The notes beneath the pieces were generated by a model, which worked only from the letters and a program-made list of their open reading frames with translations, was not told the origin of the DNA and made no database searches. This document shows, piece after piece, positions 4,830-46,033 of a stretch of 46,354 nt of DNA. Origin of the DNA: a virus; the IMG/VR virus record IMGVR_UViG_3300030102_000659, positions 1-46,354 of that record; one strand, 5' to 3'. The stretch's first letter is position 1. Each line of letters starts with the position of its first letter. The translations under genes and the position numbers were made by a program.

Positions 4830-4858
4830 ATAATACTTACGATTAATTACAAAGTAAA
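4830..4858 (-). promoter_or_regulatory. Sigma70-like promoter for the replication operon
   Basis: Minus strand: -35 TTTACT (4858-4853), 17-bp spacer, -10 TATTAT (4835-4830). The same -35 hexamer continues as TTTACTTTG, and the base pattern AGTATTAT at the -10 matches the promoter before the 98-residue gene at 45086. Predicted start is close to 4823, leaving a short leader with AAGGAG before the ATG at 4797. Confidence 0.55.
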
Positions 4859-5015
4859 GTTATTAGTTATATGTTTTTTAAAAAATAAAATTTTTTCTGT
4901 AAAAAATTTTTAAAATTTACTAATATTACTAATAAACTAATACTGACCTTAAGATATTCTAGAGTTTTAGAGACTTTACCAATATTAGATTTTAAATAGT
5001 CAGTATTAAAAACAG

Positions 5016-5044
5016 TATAATTCTATTAGAGGGCACGAGAAAAA
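5016..5044 (+). promoter_or_regulatory. Promoter -10 plus 18-bp duplicated leader element (copy A)
   Basis: TATAAT at 5016-5021 is followed by TAGAGGGCACGAGAAAAA at 5027-5044. The same 18 bases occur on the minus strand at 45807-45790, again just after a -10-like hexamer. If transcription starts about seven bases after the -10, the shared sequence forms the first bases of the mRNA. It drives the only plus-strand gene, 70 bases downstream. Confidence 0.5.
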
Positions 5045-5113
5045 ATTTCGTCTTGAGCTATAAATCTACTAAGTTGTAATATATAATCTTACTTAGAAAT
5101 TAGAAAGATAAAC

Positions 5114-6565
5114 ATGAGTGATATTAAATATAAGTTTAAAACTAAACCATACGCACACCAATTAGAAGCGTTAAAAAAGTCTTGGAATAAAAAAGAATAC
5201 GCCTATTTTATGGAAATGGGAACAGGTAAATCTAAAGTTCTTATTGATAATATAGCTATACTTTATGACAAAGGTGGAATAAATTCTGCGATTATAGTTG
5301 CTCCTAAAGGAGTGTATAGAAACTGGTCAGAAAAAGAAATACCTACTCATATGCCAGACCACGTAGAAACACAAATAGCTGTGTGGAATCCAGCACCTAC
5401 TAAAAAACAAAAAGAAGAATTAATTAAATTATTCACCCCTAGTGATGATTTAAAAATATTAGTAATAAATGTTGAAGCTTTTAGCACTAAAAAAGGAGTA
5501 GCTTTTGTTGAAAGATTTATATTAGGACATTTACCGTTAATAGCTGTAGATGAATCAACCACTATTAAAAATCCAAAAGCACAAAGAACTAAGAATTTAT
5601 TAAAGTTAGCTATTAATACTAAATATAGAAGAATACTTACAGGCTTTCCTGTTACTCAATCACCGTTAGATTTATATAGTCAAAGTAGTTTCTTATCACC
5701 ACATTTGTTAGGTTATGCGTCATATTATTCTTTTCAAAACAGATATGCACAATTAATTAATCGTAAAATGGGGGCTAGGTCTTTTAGACAAGTTGTTGGT
5801 TATCAAAATTTAGATGAACTAAGTAAAAATGTAAATGAGTTCTCTTACAGAGTGCTAAAGAAAGAATGTTTAGATTTACCAGATAAAATATATCAACGTA
5901 GAGAAGTAGAACTAACACCAGAACAAAAGAAAGTTTATAAAGAATTAAAAGACTATGCTATAGCTGAATTAGATTCACACGAAATAGTTAGTGTAACTTC
6001 AATACTAACACAAATATTAAGATTACACCAAGTTGTTTGTGGTTTTGTAAAACACGATAACGGTGAAGAAGTAGAAGTTAAAAGTAATCGTTTGAATGAA
6101 TTAATAGATATTCTACAAGAAGTACAAGGTAAAACTATTATATGGGCTAATTATCAATACGATATAAAAAGAATATTAAAAACATTACAAGAAATAACAG
6201 GAACTGAAAGCGTAGCTACTTATTATGGTGAAACTCCTGATGAAGAACGTCAAGAAATTATACGTAGATTTCAAAACCCTAATTCAGAACTACAGTATTT
6301 AGTTAGTAACACACAAACAGGAGGTTATGGTATTACACTTACTGAAGCAAGTAATGTAATTTACTATAGTAATAATTACGACCTTGAAAAACGTTTACAA
6401 TCTGAAGACCGTGCTCACCGTATAGGTCAAACAAATAAAGTAACTTATATTGATTTAGTTGCTAAAGGCACTGTAGATGAAAAAATCGTAAAAGCTCTTA
6501 GAAATAAACTTGACCTAGCACAAGAAGTATTAGGTGATGAAAAATGGAAAGATTGGATTAACTAA
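5114..6565 (+). CDS. SNF2-family DEAD-like helicase/ATPase
   Basis: 483 residues, a compact two-RecA-domain SF2 protein. Motifs in order: Q-like PYAHQLEAL, Walker A MGTGKS (35-40), Walker B DEST with the SNF2-type extension TIKNPKAQR (146-158), motif III LTGFPVT (175-181), a C-terminal helicase half with SNTQTGGYGITL, and motif VI QSEDRAHRIGQ (429-439), which is diagnostic for SNF2. Such ATPases translocate on double-stranded DNA and remodel protein-DNA complexes; in phages they may help replication, recombination or resist host defence. It is the only plus-strand gene here and overlaps the end of the opposing virion operon tail-to-tail by eight bases, with no visible terminator. Confidence 0.93.
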   Translation: MSDIKYKFKTKPYAHQLEALKKSWNKKEYAYFMEMGTGKSKVLIDNIAILYDKGGINSAIIVAPKGVYRNWSEKEIPTHMPDHVETQIAVWNPAPTKKQKEELIKLFTPSDDLKILVINVEAFSTKKGVAFVERFILGHLPLIAVDESTTIKNPKAQRTKNLLKLAINTKYRRILTGFPVTQSPLDLYSQSSFLSPHLLGYASYYSFQNRYAQLINRKMGARSFRQVVGYQNLDELSKNVNEFSYRVLKKECLDLPDKIYQRREVELTPEQKKVYKELKDYAIAELDSHEIVSVTSILTQILRLHQVVCGFVKHDNGEEVEVKSNRLNELIDILQEVQGKTIIWANYQYDIKRILKTLQEITGTESVATYYGETPDEERQEIIRRFQNPNSELQYLVSNTQTGGYGITLTEASNVIYYSNNYDLEKRLQSEDRAHRIGQTNKVTYIDLVAKGTVDEKIVKALRNKLDLAQEVLGDEKWKDWIN

Positions 6566-7652
6566 CCATTCTAGCTTGTTTTATCGCTTCTCTATATTTT
6601 TGTGCATCAGTCATTAAAGAACCACCACCTGCCATCGCTCTCATAGGAACCATTGGACTACGTTTTGGTAATGAATCTAAAGGGTCAGGGTTAGTTGCAC
6701 TACCTATTTCACCACTTTTAATACCCATTTCGTAAAGCATTTGTGCATCTTCGTCACTTAATGCTTTACCACCTCTCATTATAATATCTATGTATTCTGA
6801 AAGTTTTGGGTTATTTCGAGTATATTCCTTATACAATTCTATGTCTTTTCTAAATAAATTTCCTAATTCTTCTCTTCTACTTATCTGTCTACCTTCTTGA
6901 TTCAGGTACCTCGAATCCTTCACGAAATCTTTTAAACGTTTTTTTGCTGCAGCTGTATTTAAATCGTCCATCACACTAGGATTAGTTGCACTACCTAACT
7001 CACCACTTTCAATATCCATTTTAGAAAGCATAAAAGCTATATCTTCGTCAGATATACCTCTACCTGATTGTCCTGATTGTGATTTATTAATATCATCCAT
7101 AATCATCTGTCGCATTATATCAGCATCAGAAGGTGAGATTGCTTCTTTAATTAAAGAAGCAATCTCATCTTTAAATGCAAGTGATTGACCGTCTTTAGCA
7201 TATAAAGGTCCACCCATGTTTTTGAAACCTATTGTATTCCTAACTTTTTCAGGTAAAGCCCTAAGTCCTGCTCCTTTTTTACCTGCAGGAACTGCTTGTA
7301 ATATACCACCACCATTACTCATCATTTGTGGTTCTTGATTGCCACTAGATATTAACATAGCTTTAGCTGTATCTAAAACATCTACAGCTGCACCTATATC
7401 GCCTTGTGTTCTACCTACTACTGCTTCAGCTAACATCATTGCGTCTTGTTCTACACTCATAGGAGCTTGTCCACCACCCATTTCAGGTTCCATAGGAGGT
7501 TCTTCAGGTGGCATAGGGGCACCCATAGGCATAGGGGGAGGTCCCATTGGTGCTGGTGCTCCACCACCCATTCCTGGAGGGGGTCCCATAGGGGCTCCTT
7601 GTGGTGGTTGCATCATACTTGCAATACCTGTTAATTTTTCATTAGGGTCCAT
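6558..7652 (-). CDS. Virion-type protein with Pro/Met/Gly-rich N-terminus and internal duplication
   Basis: 364 residues, function unknown. Residues 1-66 are low complexity (runs of P, M, G). The C-terminal half carries two copies of one unit: GISDEDIAFMLSKMDIESGE and ALSDEDAQMLYEMGIKSGEI, each followed by GSATNP, about 105 residues apart. Such composition is common in ejection or internal virion proteins of marine short-tailed phages, and it is the last gene of the block of six large proteins of this style. A clear AAGGAG lies before the ATG. A 34-bp perfect DNA palindrome lies inside the coding sequence. Confidence 0.72.
   Translation of the reverse strand: MDPNEKLTGIASMMQPPQGAPMGPPPGMGGGAPAPMGPPPMPMGAPMPPEEPPMEPEMGGGQAPMSVEQDAMMLAEAVVGRTQGDIGAAVDVLDTAKAMLISSGNQEPQMMSNGGGILQAVPAGKKGAGLRALPEKVRNTIGFKNMGGPLYAKDGQSLAFKDEIASLIKEAISPSDADIMRQMIMDDINKSQSGQSGRGISDEDIAFMLSKMDIESGELGSATNPSVMDDLNTAAAKKRLKDFVKDSRYLNQEGRQISRREELGNLFRKDIELYKEYTRNNPKLSEYIDIIMRGGKALSDEDAQMLYEMGIKSGEIGSATNPDPLDSLPKRSPMVPMRAMAGGGSLMTDAQKYREAIKQARMVS
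7134..7167. repeat. 34-bp perfect palindrome inside a coding gene
   Basis: Half-site TGAGATTGCTTCTTTAA (7134-7150) is followed directly by its exact reverse complement (7151-7167), with no loop. It lies in the 364-residue virion-type gene, where it encodes the segment EIASLIKEAIS. No T-run follows it on the minus strand, so it is not a terminator. Confidence 0.9.
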
Positions 7653-16462: not shown

Positions 16463-18196
16463 TCAAAAAGTATATATTTTTAAAGCTTTTTCTTTACCTT
16501 TTACTTTTATAGGTTTTAATGGTTTTAATGAAATACCACAATATTTCTCAGTTTCTTCACCAATAAGTATGTCAACTTTAGCTTCTTTAGTAGCTGATTC
16601 TAATCTAGCAGCTGTATTTACAGCGTCTCCTATAGCTGAATAATCAAACCTTGTATCGCTACCCATATTGCCAATAACCGCTTCTCCTGTATTTACGCCT
16701 ACGCCTATAGCAACACCTATATCTGCTTTTATTATGTTTTCTTGTATTTCTTTTGCACATTCTACAGCTATTTGTTCATGATGTAGTAAGTCTAACGGTG
16801 CATTAAATATAGCCATCATTGCATCGCCTATATATTTATCCACCATACCTCCGTATTTTTTAACTGCATCAGATTGTATAGTTAATGCTTTATTCATTAT
16901 TTCAGTAACTTGTTCTGGTTCTAATGTTTCAGATAAAGCTGTAAAACCTCTAACGTCTGTGAATAAAAAAGTACATCTTCTTTTTTCTCCGCCTAGTTTT
17001 AATAAATCAGGGTCTTTTTGTAAACGTTTTACTTGTCTAGGGTCAAGATAATGTTCAAACTGTTTCTTTATTTGTTCTCTTAATTTCCATTGTTCTCTAA
17101 ATCTAAGGTAAAAAGCTACGCTACCTGAGATAAACTGGCTTATTAAAGCCCACGTTACGTCTATTAAAAGACCTGCACCTATCGTATAAGCCCCGTATAA
17201 GCCCGTTAATCCCATAGTTAATAAACCTAAGACTACGCCCCAAGTTATTCCTAAATAGCTTATAAACGCCCATACGAGCCCTACAGATACTATAAATATT
17301 AAAAGTTCTAAAGCTAACGCATAATCAGGAACATAAGGACTATTTTGTATAAGTATCGATTCTGCTAACGCTGCTTGTATTTTATGTGGTTCAAGAAGTC
17401 CAACAGGCGTAGCTATTTGTGGCATTACACCATTAGCAGTAACACCTACAAACACAAACTTACCATTAACATTCATTTCTTGTAAATCTGTTTCTTCTGT
17501 TTTTACCCACGATACCCATTTACGACCAAGACTATCGGTTTTAACTGGTGGTATTCCTCTAACAGCTATTTCTTGTACCCCGTTATCGTTAGTTGTAATT
17601 ATATAAGTACGAGCTCCTGTTAAATTTTTTAATACATGAACTCCGAAAGAAGGAGACCAACCGTCAGGCGTTTTTAATAATAGAGGTATTCTTCTAACAA
17701 GTTGGTCTACTTCTGTGGGGGCTATAGCAACTCCTTGTGCTATATCATCATATAAATAAAAGTTTTCTTTAACACCTGTAGACATTAATCCACCGACATC
17801 AGGACCTTTAATTACTGTTCCTGTTGTTTTAGGATAATTTAAACTGCCGTCTTCAAACGTTGCTAAAACACTAGGAGCATAGCCAAGAGACCTTGCAAAA
17901 TCTTCATCTCCCATAAGTCTGTCTGGTTGTGGAAAACTTATCACCCAACCAACACCTAATGCACCTTTGCCTAATATTTCTAATTGTATATCAGCTAATC
18001 TTTTTCTAGGTAAAGGATAACCGCCTTCTCGTTCTACATCTTCTTCTGTTATATTTAGAATCATGAAATTACCACTAGGCTTTTGTTCTTTTACTAAAGC
18101 ATCAAAAGTTTTTAATTTAATTATTTCAGTAGGTGTGCTTTGAAACAATAAAGGTAATGCTAATAAAGGTAATAATATAAATATAAGTTTCTTCAT
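16463..18196 (-). CDS. CHASE2-domain class III adenylate cyclase (membrane receptor)
   Basis: 577 residues. N-terminal signal anchor (4-19), a periplasmic CHASE2-type sensor (about 25-285), three hydrophobic segments (about 292-365), a short linker, then a class III cyclase domain (about 405-577). Catalytic residues are intact: metal aspartates D414 (FLFTDVRGF) and D458 (VDKYIGDAM), adenine-selecting K454 and D518 (RFDYSAIG), and N527/R531 (GDAVNTAARLE) that stabilise the transition state. K454 and D518 predict ATP as substrate, so cAMP as product. Its ATG overlaps the FecR gene stop by ATGA, which joins sensor and cyclase in one unit. CHASE2 cyclases are common next to FecR proteins in bacteria; in a phage it is unusual. 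Confidence 0.93.
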   Translation of the reverse strand: MKKLIFILLPLLALPLLFQSTPTEIIKLKTFDALVKEQKPSGNFMILNITEEDVEREGGYPLPRKRLADIQLEILGKGALGVGWVISFPQPDRLMGDEDFARSLGYAPSVLATFEDGSLNYPKTTGTVIKGPDVGGLMSTGVKENFYLYDDIAQGVAIAPTEVDQLVRRIPLLLKTPDGWSPSFGVHVLKNLTGARTYIITTNDNGVQEIAVRGIPPVKTDSLGRKWVSWVKTEETDLQEMNVNGKFVFVGVTANGVMPQIATPVGLLEPHKIQAALAESILIQNSPYVPDYALALELLIFIVSVGLVWAFISYLGITWGVVLGLLTMGLTGLYGAYTIGAGLLIDVTWALISQFISGSVAFYLRFREQWKLREQIKKQFEHYLDPRQVKRLQKDPDLLKLGGEKRRCTFLFTDVRGFTALSETLEPEQVTEIMNKALTIQSDAVKKYGGMVDKYIGDAMMAIFNAPLDLLHHEQIAVECAKEIQENIIKADIGVAIGVGVNTGEAVIGNMGSDTRFDYSAIGDAVNTAARLESATKEAKVDILIGEETEKYCGISLKPLKPIKVKGKEKALKIYTF

Positions 18197-19308
18197 CCGC
18201 TACTTTGGTTAATCGTTATAACAGAGTCTCCTCCACCATTGATTTTTATTATATTAGATACTCCGTCTTGTATCAAAATTACTGTATAACCGTTTCCTGA
18301 ATTTAAATCTAATTGCACAGACTCACTTACTTTCCTACGTAAACTTATAACCTGTCCTGTTACTATTGTAGTTATCTGTGTATCTGGGTCTTGACCTATT
18401 AAAGTACCAGAAACATTCACACCTGTAGCTAACGCTAATTGGTCTTCTTCTTTTTCTATAGCAAGAGCGTCTAGTACATTTAATAAATCTTCAAGAAAAT
18501 TTACATCAAGATAATTTATATCTAATTCTGTAAACTCTAAACTATTGTCTTCTAAAAAATCTTCTGCTAAATAATCTATATCTAAATCATTAAAATCTAA
18601 TAAGTTTACTGTTTTAGCTGTAGCTGTTTCTTCTTGCGTAATATTTTCTTCTTTAGGTGGCGTAACTATTAACATATTATCTATAATATCTAAAGTTAAA
18701 TCTAATATGACAGGTTTACTAGGTGTGCTTTCCCAAACAGAAACAGTTGTAGCTTGATAAGGTTTATTTAATAAAACACTTCCTGTTGCTGTAACTACCT
18801 CTATTTCGCCACTAGATAACCCAAAAGGGTCAGGCAGTAAAATAATAAGACTACGTCCTAACTCATCTACCGTTGCTGTAAAATCTGTGCCACGAATAGC
18901 AATGTTTGCAGTAGGTGTTTTTAACCGTATATTTTGTTTATCTATACGGTTTAGATTGCCTGTAATAAACCTAGCTGTACCTAAACCAAAAGTAAGAGCC
19001 ATTTTAGATTTAGACGGGTCAGGGTCGTATATATACTCATCAATGAGTAGTTGTGAATGTTCAGTAAGTTTTACAGTAGAAGAATCAAGAAAAGTAATAG
19101 CCATACGACCATTAGTAGTTACAGCTTCGTCGTTACTTTGTATAGCAAATTTTAAATTAGCGTCGTAAGGTTTATCTCTTACAATCTGTGCTGAACCATT
19201 TAGTTCAGATATATCTCCTATATCAACAGCTTGTGCTTGTGCCTTGGTCGTTTTGAATAACGCACACAGTACCACTATTGCCGATAGATATAATCTTAAG
19301 CCAGTCAT
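18193..19308 (-). CDS. Secreted FecR-domain protein with acidic repeats and curlin-like tail
   Basis: 371 residues. Signal peptide (about 1-25, ending near AQA), then a FecR domain (about 30-150) with its typical TPTANIAIRGTDFTA motif (131-145). Residues 237-278 are two ~20-residue acidic repeats (DFNDLDIDYLAEDFLEDNS, EFTELDINYLDVNFLEDLL). The C-terminus (338-371) has a Q-x-G-x-x-N pattern (QDGVSN) and GGDSVITINQSS, like the repeats of the neighbouring curlin-like protein. FecR domains sense or transmit periplasmic signals. Probably exported to periplasm or surface, partner of the CHASE2 cyclase or of the fibre. Its 5' 86 bases lie inside the curlin-like gene in another frame; no clear Shine-Dalgarno is seen. 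Confidence 0.85.
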   Translation of the reverse strand: MTGLRLYLSAIVVLCALFKTTKAQAQAVDIGDISELNGSAQIVRDKPYDANLKFAIQSNDEAVTTNGRMAITFLDSSTVKLTEHSQLLIDEYIYDPDPSKSKMALTFGLGTARFITGNLNRIDKQNIRLKTPTANIAIRGTDFTATVDELGRSLIILLPDPFGLSSGEIEVVTATGSVLLNKPYQATTVSVWESTPSKPVILDLTLDIIDNMLIVTPPKEENITQEETATAKTVNLLDFNDLDIDYLAEDFLEDNSLEFTELDINYLDVNFLEDLLNVLDALAIEKEEDQLALATGVNVSGTLIGQDPDTQITTIVTGQVISLRRKVSESVQLDLNSGNGYTVILIQDGVSNIIKINGGGDSVITINQSSG

Positions 19309-19927
19309 TATCTAATGTACTCGATTGTGTAATATTAAATGTTCTGCTGTTTCCTGTTTGGTCTAAATAAAAATAACCACCAGCATAACCAGAACCTGTA
19401 AAGTTTACAGTATTACTATCACCGTCAACATCAACATAATTAGTAGCACCGTCATAATTTATATCAAAATCAAAAGTGTTACCGTCACCTTGTATAATCC
19501 AATCTAAATCTAACGTAGCAGCAAGAGCACTAGTGCCGTGGTCAAGAGTAAAAGTATTTGTACTTCCTGTTACGTCTACATTATAGTTTGAACTATCTAT
19601 ACCGTAGGTGTTTGTTGGGTCGCCTTGAATAGTAAACGTATTACTATCTCCATCAAATTCAAAAAAGCCTGTTATAGAATCTCCTAAAATATCACCAAGA
19701 AATTTGTTTGTATCACCTAACTGGTTAATATCAAGAGTTAACGAAACACCGTCTAAATCTAAAGCAGTTAAACTACCTGCCGCAGAATTTAAACCACCTA
19801 TTATATTTCCAGAACCAAGCTGTTCTAAATCTATATTAGCTGTTGCACCGCTTTGGTCTACATGTATTTCATTATCAGCTGCAAAAATAAATCCTGCAGT
19901 TAAAAATAAACTAATCAGTACTTTCAT
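19223..19927 (-). CDS. Curlin-like (CsgA/CsgB-type) secreted repeat protein
   Basis: 234 residues from the ATG at 19927, chosen because GGGAGG lies seven bases upstream and it gives a clean signal peptide (MKVLISLFLTAGFIFAA); an in-frame ATG nine codons earlier has no such site. After cleavage the whole protein is built of beta-strand units with spaced N, Q, G: NEIHVDQSGATAN, LTLDINQLGDTN, FEFDGDSNTFTIQGD, WIIQGDGNTFDF, VDVDGDSNTVNF, YLDQTGNSRTFNITQ. This is the strand-turn pattern of curlin amyloid, though more Asp-rich and more divergent than E. coli CsgA. Two cysteines close the C-terminus. Lies directly after csgG and is the likely export cargo. Confidence 0.8.
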   Translation of the reverse strand: MKVLISLFLTAGFIFAADNEIHVDQSGATANIDLEQLGSGNIIGGLNSAAGSLTALDLDGVSLTLDINQLGDTNKFLGDILGDSITGFFEFDGDSNTFTIQGDPTNTYGIDSSNYNVDVTGSTNTFTLDHGTSALAATLDLDWIIQGDGNTFDFDINYDGATNYVDVDGDSNTVNFTGSGYAGGYFYLDQTGNSRTFNITQSSTLDNDWLKIISIGNSGTVCVIQNDQGTSTSC

Positions 19928-20732
19928 TTTTTTCCTCCCAAAAACCTTTATCATACCCTATTTTGACTATTTGCAAAACAGCCTCCTCTATAGCTCTTTG
20001 TAATGCTAATGTTGTAGGCTCATTTTCTGCATCACCCATTTCTATTTCTACAAGCTCCGTACCTGCTTCTATAAACTTAAATACGTCCTGTGATTGACCA
20101 TAACTGTATATTTGTTTACTAACTAAAACATCTATTAAAACTTCTCCCGTAGCTACAGAAACCATACGTAAAGCCAAAGTAACTTCATCTACTCTATATT
20201 GTTTACTACTACCGATACCCAAATATCTTGCACCAATACCACCACTTTTAGTATTTGTATCATATCCAATAACAGCTCCTTCCATTAATACACCTGCAAA
20301 TAATAAAGGCATTATAGGTTTAGGACCGTCTGTTTCTTCATTTTGTTCTCTAGCAGAACGTATAAGCTGTCTTTCTTTTGTAAGATTATCTAAACCAACT
20401 CTTTCAGCTACTCTAAAAAACTTACCATTAGAAGTATTTTTTAATGAACGTATTAATAAATGACTAGGTTGTTGTGTGATAGCTGTGCTAAAAAGTGCAA
20501 ACTGACTATTGCTTTTACGTTGTCCTGTTTGGTCTGTAAAACTATTAGGATAAACTGCTACCACTATGGGTACTTTAGGTTGTGCTACATTTAGTAATTC
20601 TTCGGATTGTATTTCTAAAACAGAAGGTAAATTTTTACCGTTTTCTAAATTAATAGTAACAGGGTTTAGACTACAACTAGAAAGAAAAATCACCAATAGG
20701 TAACTGTATCTCAGTAATGTTTCCATCTGCAT
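19911..20732 (-). CDS. csgG: CsgG, curli outer-membrane secretion lipoprotein
   Basis: 273 residues (E. coli CsgG 277). Lipoprotein signal with lipobox LSSC, lipidated C20. Family blocks align throughout: IVVAVYPNSFTDQTGQ, the FSTAI segment, SLKNTSNGKFFRVAERVGLDNL, KERQLIRSARE, LFAGVLMEGAVIGYDTNTKSG, GIGARYLGIGSSKQYRVDEVTLALR, VSVATGEVL, SKQIYSYG. CsgG forms a nonameric outer-membrane pore that exports curlin. The constriction loop corresponding to E. coli Y51/N55/F56 reads SNSQFALFSTA: F is kept, the other two seem changed. Starts inside csgF (56-base overlap) with GGTGA eight bases upstream, and its end overlaps the curlin-like gene by 17 bases. Confidence 0.95.
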   Translation of the reverse strand: MQMETLLRYSYLLVIFLSSCSLNPVTINLENGKNLPSVLEIQSEELLNVAQPKVPIVVAVYPNSFTDQTGQRKSNSQFALFSTAITQQPSHLLIRSLKNTSNGKFFRVAERVGLDNLTKERQLIRSAREQNEETDGPKPIMPLLFAGVLMEGAVIGYDTNTKSGGIGARYLGIGSSKQYRVDEVTLALRMVSVATGEVLIDVLVSKQIYSYGQSQDVFKFIEAGTELVEIEMGDAENEPTTLALQRAIEEAVLQIVKIGYDKGFWEEKNESTD

Positions 20733-21162
20733 CAGTAATCACCAAAGTTATAATTCCATCTTTAATACTATATTTAATAGTGTTACCCTCTAAAGTTAAA
20801 GTTCCTTCAGTGCTTGGGGTTTCACCAAATAAGTTCTCTACAAGCTGTCTTGATAACTGTGCATAAATACGTGATTCAAGGTTACGTATAAATCTAGCAA
20901 GTGTAGTGTTTTCTTTATCTCTTTCAATTTGTTCTTGTAAAGCTTTTATTTCTTCTTTAATACTCATTTTACGATTAAACTCTTGGTTTTCAATCGTAAG
21001 ATAATGTGACGAGGTGTTTATACCACTAAAGCTAGGGTTTTTAAATTCATGTGTAATAGTATCAGCCCATAAAGGATTAGTTAAAATTGCAAGAAAAAAG
21101 AAAATACCAAGTAATGCTGCTATACGATATATCCAAATATTTTCAGTTTTTTCTTTATCCAT
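20677..21162 (-). CDS. csgF: CsgF-like curli assembly factor
   Basis: 161 residues. A signal peptide with a long charged N-region (MDKEKTENIWIYR) and hydrophobic core ends at PLWA, directly followed by DTITHEFKNPSFSG, which matches the mature CsgF start (TMTFQFRNPNFGG in E. coli) that plugs into the CsgG pore. A central coiled segment (KEEIKALQEQIERDKE) and a C-terminal beta part (YSIKDGIITLVITDADGNIT) also fit CsgF. CsgF sits at the mouth of CsgG and helps anchor and nucleate fibres. Gene order csgF-csgG here is the reverse of the E. coli csgEFG cluster only in that csgE is absent. Overlaps csgG by 56 bases. Confidence 0.9.
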   Translation of the reverse strand: MDKEKTENIWIYRIAALLGIFFFLAILTNPLWADTITHEFKNPSFSGINTSSHYLTIENQEFNRKMSIKEEIKALQEQIERDKENTTLARFIRNLESRIYAQLSRQLVENLFGETPSTEGTLTLEGNTIKYSIKDGIITLVITDADGNITEIQLPIGDFSF

Positions 21163-26185: not shown

Positions 26186-28822
26186 TTATTCTCCTTCGTT
26201 TAATTTAGCTTTTAATTCTTCTACTTGTGCAGAAAGTTCTTTTACTGCGTTTACAAGATACCATGTCATGTTATCTGGGTTTACAGTTTTTACTCCTGTT
26301 GATTGTGTTTCAACCATATCTGGTAAAACTGTTTCTATTTCTTGTGCTATTACACCGAGTTGTATTCCTTCTTTATTTACTACTGCTGATTTAGTATTTT
26401 CAAAATCAGTTATTTCATCTTCAGTTCTATATTCAAAGTTTCTAACTTGTATTTCATTTATAGCATCAAGACCTATGTTATTATCTACTATATTCTTTTT
26501 AATTCTTCTGTCAGAAGTTGTTGCCCAAGCTGATGAGTTATTACCTTGATATAAACTACCACTTGATGGAGGATTTATAAATCCTGTATTATCTCCTTTA
26601 CCAACTGAATTAGCTCCTAAAACTAATTCACTATGACCACCAGCACTTGTTTCAGCATCAAAACCTAATAATACACTATTACTTGAACCTGATATACCAG
26701 AACCAGCACCATAACCTATAACAGTATTATTACTACCTGTTGTCATATTGGCACAAGTATTACTACCTATAACAACATTATAATTACCTGTAGTTGAGTT
26801 CATAGCTGCTCTATAACCTAAGAAAACAGCATGAGAACCAGTAGTTAAATCTTCAGCAGCTTCATAACCCATAATACTATTTGAATCACCAGTAGTACAT
26901 GAAAGTAAAGAATTAGTACCAACAGAAGTATTACCACCACCTGATGTTGTTAATCCACTCATAGCTCCATAGCCTAAAGCTGTATTACTACCACTTGTTG
27001 TACAGGCATCTAGAGAATAATTACCAACTGCCGTATTTGAAGCACCAGTAGTGTTATTTTGCAAAGCACTTCTGCCAACAGCAGTATTGTTTGATGCTGT
27101 AGTATTAGCAATTAAAGAATATAAACCAACTGCTGTATTAGCAGCACCAGTTGTATTAACATTTAAAGCAAAAGCACCAACTGCTGTGTTTTCATCTGCT
27201 GTAGTATTCTCAGAAAGAGCATCGTGTCCAATAGCAACATTATTTTGTCCAGTTGTATTGGCATCAAGACTAGCATATCCTACTGCCACATTTTGTCTGC
27301 CTGTAGTATTTGCATACATAGAAACATAACCAATAGCTGTATTGGAATTTGCTGTTGTATTTGCTTGTAAAGCATAAGCACCTAAACCTGTATTATAAGT
27401 ACCTGTACTATTTGTTAATAAAGCATAATGACCAACTGCTGTGTTATTATCTGCTGTTGTATTATTAGCTAATGCTGCTCTACCTAATCCTGTATTATTA
27501 TCTCCAGTTGTATTTGCATTTAAAGACCCTTTACCAACTGCAGTATTTGGTCCACCTGTAGTATTAGCTGCAAGAGAATCATATCCAACTGAAACATTGT
27601 TATTAGAAGTAGTGTTAGCTGCTAATGCATTTGTTCCTATCCCAACATTTCCAGCACCAGTAGTATTTAAATCAAGAGCATGATAACCAACAGCAGTATT
27701 ATTAGATGCTGTGGTATTTGCAGATAAAGCTCCTTTTCCTATTGCTGTATTTTCTGCTCCAGTTGTATTTAATGTGAGAGCAACAAGACCTACAGCAGTA
27801 TTATTGTCTGCTGTTGTGTTGGCTTCTAATGCTTTTTGTCCTACTGCTACATTTTGTTCTCCAGTCGTATTACCTGATAATGAGTCATGTCCAACAGCAA
27901 CATTATTTTGACCTGTAGTATTCGCATCTAGTGAACCTGCACCAACTGCTACATTTTGTCCTCCTGTGGTATTAGTAGATAAAGCTGCTTTACCAACTGC
28001 TGTATTGCTACTTGCTGTAGTATTAGCATACAAAGCTGTATAACCAACAGCTGTATTATCACTTCCAGTTGTATTAAGTTCAACACATCCCGAGCCTACT
28101 GCTATATTGTTTGAGCCAGTTGTAAGTTTAGTTAAAGCTCTACGACCAACAGCTGTGTTATCATCTCCAGATGTTAAATCATCAAATGCTTCATAACCAA
28201 AGCCTGTATTTCTAAGGGCAGAACTAATAGTTCCTGTGCCACCATCATTACTTATTAATATACTTTCAGTTTCTATTGCATTTATACCTACGCCATTAAC
28301 AGTACCACCAGTTAAAGCTCCCGTAACTGCTGCGTCTCCGCCTATACTTACATCATCTGTAACTGTTAAATCATCTTGTACTTTTAAATCTACAGTGCTA
28401 AGACTAGCAAAAGCATCTACTATTGCTGCACCTGAACCTGCACCATCAGAATAAACTACTTTTACGTCTCCTGCTGGTATAGTTACATTAGCGCCACTAC
28501 CTTGCGATATAATAATATTTTGTGAACCTGATGTGGCATTTTCTATAAACCACATTTTTGATACTGTGTTTGGTCCAATAGTAATAGTACAAGCACTATC
28601 AAGAGCACCTGTATATTTTAAATATAGCGAACGTCCAGGGTCAGTAGAACCGTCTGCTATTGTGGTTGCATGTGTGTCTGCGTTTGAAGTTATAGCTTCT
28701 GTACCGTAACTAAATGCTTCTGCAATAAGTTCTAAATTAGTATTAGTACTTGTTCCCCAAGTTCCAGATTCGTCACCTGTAGCTATTTCTTTTAACCTTA
28801 AATCATTTACGTATGTTGCCAT
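26186..28822 (-). CDS. Tail fibre/spike with 17-residue repeats and S74 chaperone domain
   Basis: 878 residues. N-terminal part (1-220) with phage fibre-like beta segments, including KVVYSDGAGSGAAIVDAF and TVDLKVQDDLTV. Residues ~222-720 are about 29 tandem units of 17 residues, pattern NTAVGxxALxxNTTGxx, a left-handed trimeric beta-roll as in YadA-like adhesins. The last 109 residues (from S770, TTSDRRIKKNI, then GVIAQEIETVLPDMV) form an intramolecular chaperone of the endosialidase S74 type, which trims itself off after trimer folding; Ser770 in SDRR is the expected nucleophile. Starts with GGAGG. It likely binds the host surface. Confidence 0.9.
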   Translation of the reverse strand: MATYVNDLRLKEIATGDESGTWGTSTNTNLELIAEAFSYGTEAITSNADTHATTIADGSTDPGRSLYLKYTGALDSACTITIGPNTVSKMWFIENATSGSQNIIISQGSGANVTIPAGDVKVVYSDGAGSGAAIVDAFASLSTVDLKVQDDLTVTDDVSIGGDAAVTGALTGGTVNGVGINAIETESILISNDGGTGTISSALRNTGFGYEAFDDLTSGDDNTAVGRRALTKLTTGSNNIAVGSGCVELNTTGSDNTAVGYTALYANTTASSNTAVGKAALSTNTTGGQNVAVGAGSLDANTTGQNNVAVGHDSLSGNTTGEQNVAVGQKALEANTTADNNTAVGLVALTLNTTGAENTAIGKGALSANTTASNNTAVGYHALDLNTTGAGNVGIGTNALAANTTSNNNVSVGYDSLAANTTGGPNTAVGKGSLNANTTGDNNTGLGRAALANNTTADNNTAVGHYALLTNSTGTYNTGLGAYALQANTTANSNTAIGYVSMYANTTGRQNVAVGYASLDANTTGQNNVAIGHDALSENTTADENTAVGAFALNVNTTGAANTAVGLYSLIANTTASNNTAVGRSALQNNTTGASNTAVGNYSLDACTTSGSNTALGYGAMSGLTTSGGGNTSVGTNSLLSCTTGDSNSIMGYEAAEDLTTGSHAVFLGYRAAMNSTTGNYNVVIGSNTCANMTTGSNNTVIGYGAGSGISGSSNSVLLGFDAETSAGGHSELVLGANSVGKGDNTGFINPPSSGSLYQGNNSSAWATTSDRRIKKNIVDNNIGLDAINEIQVRNFEYRTEDEITDFENTKSAVVNKEGIQLGVIAQEIETVLPDMVETQSTGVKTVNPDNMTWYLVNAVKELSAQVEELKAKLNEGE
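26660..28160 (-). repeat. 51-bp (17-residue) repeat array in the tail fibre
   Basis: About 29 copies of a 51-bp unit coding NTAVGxxALxxNTTGxx; variation concentrates at four or five positions, while N, G, A/L and NTTG are fixed. Some units carry serine/cysteine instead of the consensus towards the C-terminal end. Confidence 0.88.
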
Positions 28823-45194: not shown

Positions 45195-45728
45195 TCAATC
45201 TTTCGCTGTAAAGTCTCCCTCTATGACATTTGACTCCGTCGCTCTTTTCTTTATCAACTGTTCTAATCGTACTAGTATGTCATCTTTAGACATCATATCA
45301 ATCTTTGCAGTCAATATTTCGCGTCTATCGATGTAGAGACCACCTGCTTTCCCTCGATGGACCTCCGCTGTGATGGCTGCGGATATCTGTCCTTGGTCTT
45401 TCGCCTCTTCTCTGAGGTCGTGTAGAGTAGATAAATGATTCTCTAGCGAAACTGCGTCCTTTTCTGAGGCTGCGATTTCCAAGTCGATGAGGTAGTTTCG
45501 AACAACTGGGTTATGATTGAGTAATACGCTACCCTGTGTCTTCGCACCCTTCCTATCCTTTGTATAGCCTGCTTTTATCGCGGCTTCGGTTGCTGTTTGC
45601 CCTTTGAAATACTCTTTACAAAATCTCTTTTGTTTTGAGTTGAGTGGTTGCCAAATCTTACCCTTATCATCTATGAAACCTTTACCGTCTTCAGTTGGCA
45701 TGAGTGAAGTATATGTGAGCTGTTTCAT
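45195..45728 (-). CDS. terS: Terminase small subunit
   Basis: 177 residues. The N-terminal helix-turn-helix block (31-80) reads SKQKRFCKEYFKGQTATEAA then IKAGYT and HNPVVRNYL, the classical terminase small-subunit pattern. The C-terminal part is helical and mixed (LSTLHDLREEAKDQGQISAA). It recognises the packaging site and stimulates terL. GAGGAG before ATG. Sits about 4.5 kb upstream of terL, with seven unrelated genes between, which is unusual. Confidence 0.87.
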   Translation of the reverse strand: MKQLTYTSLMPTEDGKGFIDDKGKIWQPLNSKQKRFCKEYFKGQTATEAAIKAGYTKDRKGAKTQGSVLLNHNPVVRNYLIDLEIAASEKDAVSLENHLSTLHDLREEAKDQGQISAAITAEVHRGKAGGLYIDRREILTAKIDMMSKDDILVRLEQLIKKRATESNVIEGDFTAKD

Positions 45729-45789
45729 CTTATCTCCTCGTGTAGCAAATGATATTACTATATTATTATAAAATAATCTATTTTAATAG

Positions 45790-45817
45790 TTTTTCTCGTG
45801 CCCTCTAGAGAATCTTA
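45790..45817 (-). promoter_or_regulatory. Promoter -10 plus 18-bp duplicated leader element (copy B)
   Basis: TAAGAT at 45817-45812 is followed by the identical 18 bases TAGAGGGCACGAGAAAAA (45807-45790). The same order, with TATAAT, precedes the SNF2 gene. The element begins about 79 bases before the terS ATG. Confidence 0.5.
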
Positions 45818-45997
45818 CCATAGTTTCTAATAGATTAATAGAATTCTATTAGTTTTGAGAAACCAAAGAATAGAGTAACCAAGAGGCTCACAGACCCATT
45901 CTATTAGTTTATTAGAGATATTAGTAGTTTTAGAGATTTTTTTACAAAAACTTTTTTATTTTACAGAACTACAATACACATAGATTTAATAGAGCAT

Positions 45998-46033
45998 AAA
46001 AAACCCCCGAGCCGCGGACAACGGCACGAGGGC
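45998..46033 (-). terminator. Rho-independent terminator after the 87-residue gene
   Basis: Minus strand: GC-rich stem CCCUCGUGCCG/CGGCUCGGGGG with one U-U mismatch and one G-U pair, short loop, then TTTTTT. Stops the transcript of the gene ending at 46053 before the terS promoter region. Confidence 0.85.

Follow-up and report, generated by a model that had tools for sequence, protein, structure and literature searches.

Late promoters of phage T4 use gp55 together with an TATAAATA box, and those of the P2 type use the host RNA polymerase and carry an activator site near -55. The Ogr-activated late promoters of P2 depend on a small phage DNA-binding activator, and few copies of a short site stand before separate late operons that include the terminase genes (PMC3931495). 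T4 UvsW, a superfamily 2 helicase, has a late promoter and is encoded apart from the early replication genes (PMC3016281). Among marine phages, those of the HTVC023P type are described as widespread pelagiphages; the one studied by transcriptomics has no RNA polymerase of its own and includes early genes of unknown function (PMC12753301, PMC9599517). For HTVC027P, dependence on the host RNA polymerase has been reported (PMC12753301). Our search of the literature found no promoter motif described for pelagiphages.

Here we analyze a two-box module that is present twice in an uncultured phage genome and its relatives, before the gene for the small terminase subunit (terS) and before an SNF2-family helicase gene, and that appears to be undescribed in the literature searched. 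Like the P2 sites, it occurs in few copies before separate late operons including a terminase gene; however, the Ogr sites have the form TGT-N12-ACA, and the consensus of the first box of the module (box A, GAGGGCAYRRGRAA) lacks such spaced triplets. The SNF2 gene resembles T4 uvsW in encoding a superfamily 2 helicase, in its putative late promoter, and in its position apart from the early replication genes; removal of R-loops by the SNF2 protein, as by UvsW, would be only an analogy. With T7-type promoters, the module shares a short conserved AGAGGG-containing box before late genes. Unlike these, it consists of two boxes 30-31 bp apart, and a T7-type promoter was rejected because a single-subunit RNA polymerase (PF00940) was found in none of 12 related records, in a search that recovered the T7 positive control.

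An inverted repeat before SNF2 and terS

The window, that is, the whole stretch of 46,354 nucleotides analyzed here (IMG/VR record IMGVR_UViG_3300030102_000659), contains the exact 18-mer TAGAGGGCACGAGAAAAA at 5027-5044 on the plus strand (consensus TAGAGGGCAYRRGRAAA) and, as the reverse complement, at 45790-45807 on the minus strand. With up to three mismatches allowed, these two copies are the only matches in the window, compared to 0.02 expected from shuffles, in agreement with the inverted identity reported in the original prediction. The first copy precedes the SNF2-family helicase gene (5114..6565, plus strand; 483 aa), the lone large gene on this strand, and the second one precedes terS, the first gene of the late operon (45195..45728, minus strand). 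A 24-base block that had been noticed farther upstream, 4919-4942 versus 45902-45925, is identical at 22 of the 24 positions also in our recomputation, and extends to 61-nt AT-rich arms (4882..4942 on the plus strand and 45902-45962) that are 80% complementary and enclose the block; the distances of 108 and 118 bases given between the block and the 18-mer are both right. A lone 18-bp repeat in a single AT-rich 46-kb sequence is weak evidence, so the relatives were tested.

In gene content, namely, curli secretion and DNA hypermodification, both the window and its relatives are similar to pelagiphages of the HTVC023P type, for which a curli secretion cluster of the CsgG/CsgF kind has already been described (PMC9599517). 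In the window, the late operon carries CHASE2/guanylate-cyclase, FecR, CsgG and CsgF genes (16463-21162, minus strand). Genes for a methyltransferase, a 5-hmdU kinase helical domain, and a thymidylate synthase-like protein (L187:9474-12493), which suggest hypermodified thymine, are found in relatives bearing the repeated element and are absent from the four nearest named phages. In an 878-aa gene of the window (26186-28822, minus strand), a 51-nt unit is repeated in tandem about 18 times, and another gene region contains a near-perfect inverted repeat with 28-nt arms and zero gap (7123-7178). The record is a fragment without the early region, which is present in L174, a contig with an identical TerS. 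The two copies of the module flank the early genes and face outward on opposite strands, into the late genes from both ends. The possibility that the physical genome ends lie near SNF2 was rejected, given that the deposited isolate records simply start at the first codon of the neighboring gene.

Conservation and geometry of the two boxes

Relatives were collected by searches with the SNF2 and TerS proteins, 80 loci each. Box A, defined as at least 14 of the 16 positions of TAGAGGGCAYRRGRAA, is present in 93 of 95 regions upstream of terS and in 58 of 74 upstream of SNF2. When 2.9 million viral contigs were searched for the exact 18-mer, all 16 retrieved copies were located 79-87 nt upstream of terS or SNF2, on the same strand as the gene, and the orientation of box A relative to these genes is always sense. 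In 31 large related contigs, box A occurs about twice per genome, typically once on each strand, with the two copies on opposite strands; additional matches with two mismatches are rare, and some diverged clades or fragments have just one box A. Thus, the relatives carry the element before the same two genes, as anticipated in the original prediction, and it is nearly confined to these upstream positions rather than found at random genome sites. In this sequence comparison, chance is rejected as the explanation of the repeat: the repeat represents two copies of one conserved module.

The distribution of box A is not uniform. The box is absent from the four nearest named phages (HTVC027P, HTVC023P, 023Pt_psg01, and DSL-LC04), so the element marks an uncultured clade; a blastn search with the terS module against the phage collection produced no match. 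In one clade, box A was lost before SNF2 and kept before terS, so it is not essential at the SNF2 site there. At the SNF2 loci of this clade (L031, L034, L035, L042-L045, L047-L049, L076, and L079), CTACTAAACGGACTARAAG or a similar sequence replaces box A; those members whose terS region was read kept box A before terS and retain the TAATA array.

The second component of the module, box B (TTGTAATA), was missed in the original reading. It is a -10-like sequence at a rigid distance from box A: in the window, box B of the SNF2 copy (5074..5081, plus strand) begins 47 nt downstream of the box A start, leaving a 31-nt gap, and box B of the terS copy (45753..45760, minus strand), which reads TAGTAATA in the window and TTGTAATA in most relatives, also starts 47 nt after the box A start. 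Among the aligned leaders, the distance from the start of box A is 46-47 nt in 22 of 28 SNF2 regions and in 26 of 30 terS regions, across intervening sequence that is unrelated between regions and with a distance from box A to the ATG that varies from 66 to 96. We then scanned the viral collection with GAGGGCAYRRGRAA-N18-46-TTGTAATA, leaving the gap free between 18 and 46. There were at least 112 matches; among the matches listed, the gap is 30 or 31 in 109 of 112, and 110 of 112 lie directly before terS (77) or SNF2 (33), the two that have neither assignment showing gaps of 41 and 44.

With a probability that we put slightly above even, the module is an activator-dependent promoter used with the host RNA polymerase, and its two copies co-regulate the packaging/late operon along with the SNF2 helicase. 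Box A would be the site for a sequence-specific factor, 30-31 bp upstream of box B; taking box B as the -10 puts box A at about -60 to -47, where, given the rigid spacing, the bound factor could touch the host polymerase sitting on box B. The upstream (C/G)TAATA arrays might provide added sites for the same or another protein. A single signal would then initiate transcription of the packaging/late operon from terS onward and of the SNF2 helicase gene on the opposite strand. The same two-part sequence before both genes suggests that a phage regulator still to be described probably switches them on jointly. Of the features of an activator-dependent sigma-70 promoter, the fixed distance is present, and a -35 is missing at terS, with a TTGGGC-like hexamer at SNF2. 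Against this reading, only 12-16 nt separate box B from the ATG in some terS clades, where the leader would be very short with box B as the -10. Assignment of the module as a promoter, as activated, and as late, along with the start sites and timing at both copies, is what we infer from these patterns.

Hexamers, TAATA arrays, and the competing readings

In the original prediction, both copies of the 18-mer were preceded by a -10-like hexamer. This is the case in the window, with TATAAT before the SNF2 copy and TAAGAT (45812..45817, minus strand) before the terS copy, where it lies inside GGTAAGAT; in the relatives, the observation stands for terS only, with GGTAAGAT conserved 3-4 nt upstream of box A. 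No conserved -10 was detected upstream of box A before SNF2, where the best fixed position shows 4 of 6 matches in 43% of the regions, about the same value as at other AT-rich offsets. A -35-like hexamer shows the reverse pattern: at the SNF2 copy only, the window contains TTGAGC (5053..5058, plus strand), 18 nt before TAATAT, and most relatives have TTGGGC/TTGGNC 17-19 nt before box B, and no conserved -35 was found before terS in the box A/box B frame. A TTTACT-N17-TATTAT sequence that could serve as the promoter of the divergent early operon (4830..4858, minus strand) is a consensus match only, scoring below the shuffle mean, and is not part of the shared module.

The -10-like hexamer conserved before box A at terS is compatible with transcription starting inside box A, so that this sequence would be the RNA 5' end, which counts against the activator-dependent promoter. 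Under this alternative, which we consider unlikely, the same 16-18 nt at the 5' ends of both mRNAs would be recognized, as RNA, by a factor of the phage or the host, for stability, antitermination, or translation. The conserved GGTAAGAT 3-4 nt before TAGAGGG at terS would place a start at AGAGGG well, the SNF2 copy of the window has TATAAT, and box A is always sense; however, the -10 is not conserved at SNF2, RNAalifold predicted no consensus structure in either the terS or the SNF2 leader set, and a rigid spacing of 30-31 nt to TTGTAATA, with unrelated sequence in between, is more readily explained at the DNA level. Thus, of the two mechanisms originally suggested, an RNA leader tag fits less well, and a DNA-binding factor is preferred, because of the rigid box B spacing, the TAATA sites in both orientations, and the lack of both a consensus RNA fold and a conserved -10 before the SNF2 copy. 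The underlying suggestion, co-regulation of SNF2 and the packaging operon via shared blocks, gains support from the conservation of box A at both genes.

A short leader peptide, for which AGAGGGC-ATG-AGA-AAA would supply the ribosome site and the start codon in a small frame upstream, seems highly improbable. Indeed, 67 of 93 terS copies and 32 of 58 SNF2 copies of box A have the ATG at this position, but the remaining copies, including both in the window, have ACG, ACA, or ATA in an otherwise intact box.

The two intergenic regions are also rich in (C/G)TAATA sites, CTAATA being their most enriched hexamer. There are, on average, 7.5-7.9 such sites per 350-nt region, compared to 1.3 expected, in both orientations. 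Upstream of box A, they form triple arrays that keep equal internal spacing, at about -117/-108/-100 relative to box A at terS and -106/-97/-89 at SNF2; in the window, the array comprises CTAATA at 4920, 4929, and 4937 (4919..4942, plus strand) and at 45902, 45910, and 45919 (45902..45925, minus strand). A density of 8 TAATA sites per 250 bp is reached in the SNF2 copy of the window and, in the 40 kb read of genome G001, in both copies; the terS copy of the window, with 6 per 250 bp, is level with two other places. A palindrome, TAATAGAATTCTATTA, is built from TAATA/TATTA sites in the terS copy (45836..45851, minus strand).

The location of box A directly after the -10-like box of terS, a usual place of an operator, together with the palindromic TAATAGAATTCTATTA, would suit binding of a phage repressor to box A and the TAATA sites, keeping terS and SNF2 silent until late. 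We regard such repression as distinctly unlikely, given that a rigid distance from box B points to positive contact, not occlusion, and that activation fits better with the lack of a conserved -35 before terS in the box A/box B frame. The TAATA sites, lying beside an AT-rich tract, could also be iterons used by an initiator or by the terminase at a replication origin or packaging-initiation site. The AT-rich arms and the location of the copies beside terS and the early replication genes accord with this possibility, and T4 origins, too, contain promoters (PMC3016281). Nevertheless, we find it quite improbable: the cumulative GC skew tracks gene direction and does not turn at the terS copy, the box A/box B geometry is tied to the two downstream genes, and it would be strange to find another packaging site at a distance of 40 kb.

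As to the activator-dependent promoter, the terS module is separated from the gene before it by an intrinsic terminator, a hairpin (46003..46033, minus strand; -21.2 kcal/mol, z -4.0) that ends in a run of T residues. Such a hairpin is found 249-294 nt upstream of terS in 20 of the 24 relative regions examined, so terS probably needs its own promoter.

Joint change of the copies and a candidate regulator

In 21 genomes with both copies, the two boxes A differ by 1.76 positions on average within a genome, compared to 2.50 when pairs are shuffled between genomes (p=0.0007, in a permutation test that ignores phylogeny). Diverged clades altered both copies alike, to AGGCCA in G039, AGGACA in G041, and GAGAGGG in G015 and G016. 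The matched change, as read from these sequences, could be caused by a shared factor or by gene conversion. The similarity of the two copies across the whole region is also higher on average within than between genomes; in this comparison, a copy is often matched better by one from another genome than by its own partner, so we relied on the box A permutation test instead.

The early genes of G001 encode a 121-aa protein (L187:15012-15377) with a helix-turn-helix (HTH) that resembles Mor and sigma region 4. Each of the 26 tested genomes with the early region has this protein; the four named relatives lacking the element do not have it. The methyltransferase, 5-hmdU kinase domain, and thymidylate synthase genes show a similar pattern of presence and absence, so the HTH protein is only a candidate, and as such, we infer, for the factor on box A. 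The HTH of the candidate scores against the Pfam Mor family (PF08765), that of the Mor/C activators which act at middle and late promoters of phage Mu: of seven candidate proteins, one is above the curated cut-off (26.5 versus 24.9 bits) and the others score below it, and a fold search of PDB with the predicted structure, which is helical with good confidence in the core, gave no significant match. A sigma-70 factor with regions 2 and 4 was rejected for this protein, there being only weak region-4 similarity in 121 aa. Distant HTH homologs were likewise discarded as a test of co-evolution, their terS/SNF2 neighbors being too remote or absent.

The candidate differs from the P2 regulator Ogr in its sigma-region-4/Mor-like HTH, and no Ogr/Delta C4 zinc finger (CX2CX22CX4C) was reported among the G001 early proteins scanned with Pfam. 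Separately, a 68-aa protein with a DksA/TraR-like C4 zinc finger is encoded upstream of the terS module (L188:1647-1853) in 20 of 26 terS loci; its Pfam score is below the cut-off and it is not universal, and it could also affect promoter use.

A more specific proposal, which we advance tentatively and consider rather unlikely as a whole, is that the sigma-region-4/Mor-like protein, unrelated to known late regulators, redirects the host polymerase to a new class of two-box promoter that is present exactly twice, facing outward from the early genes, as a switch from replication to packaging. If so, packaging and the UvsW-like SNF2 helicase would come on together in widespread SAR11-type phages. 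The module, shared by a large set of uncultured phages of the ocean, bears on how phages of the HTVC023P type switch to late genes. It links packaging and a helicase in one regulatory unit and, with its exactly defined DNA target, its rigid geometry, and a candidate protein that can be named, makes the question of the late switch directly testable.
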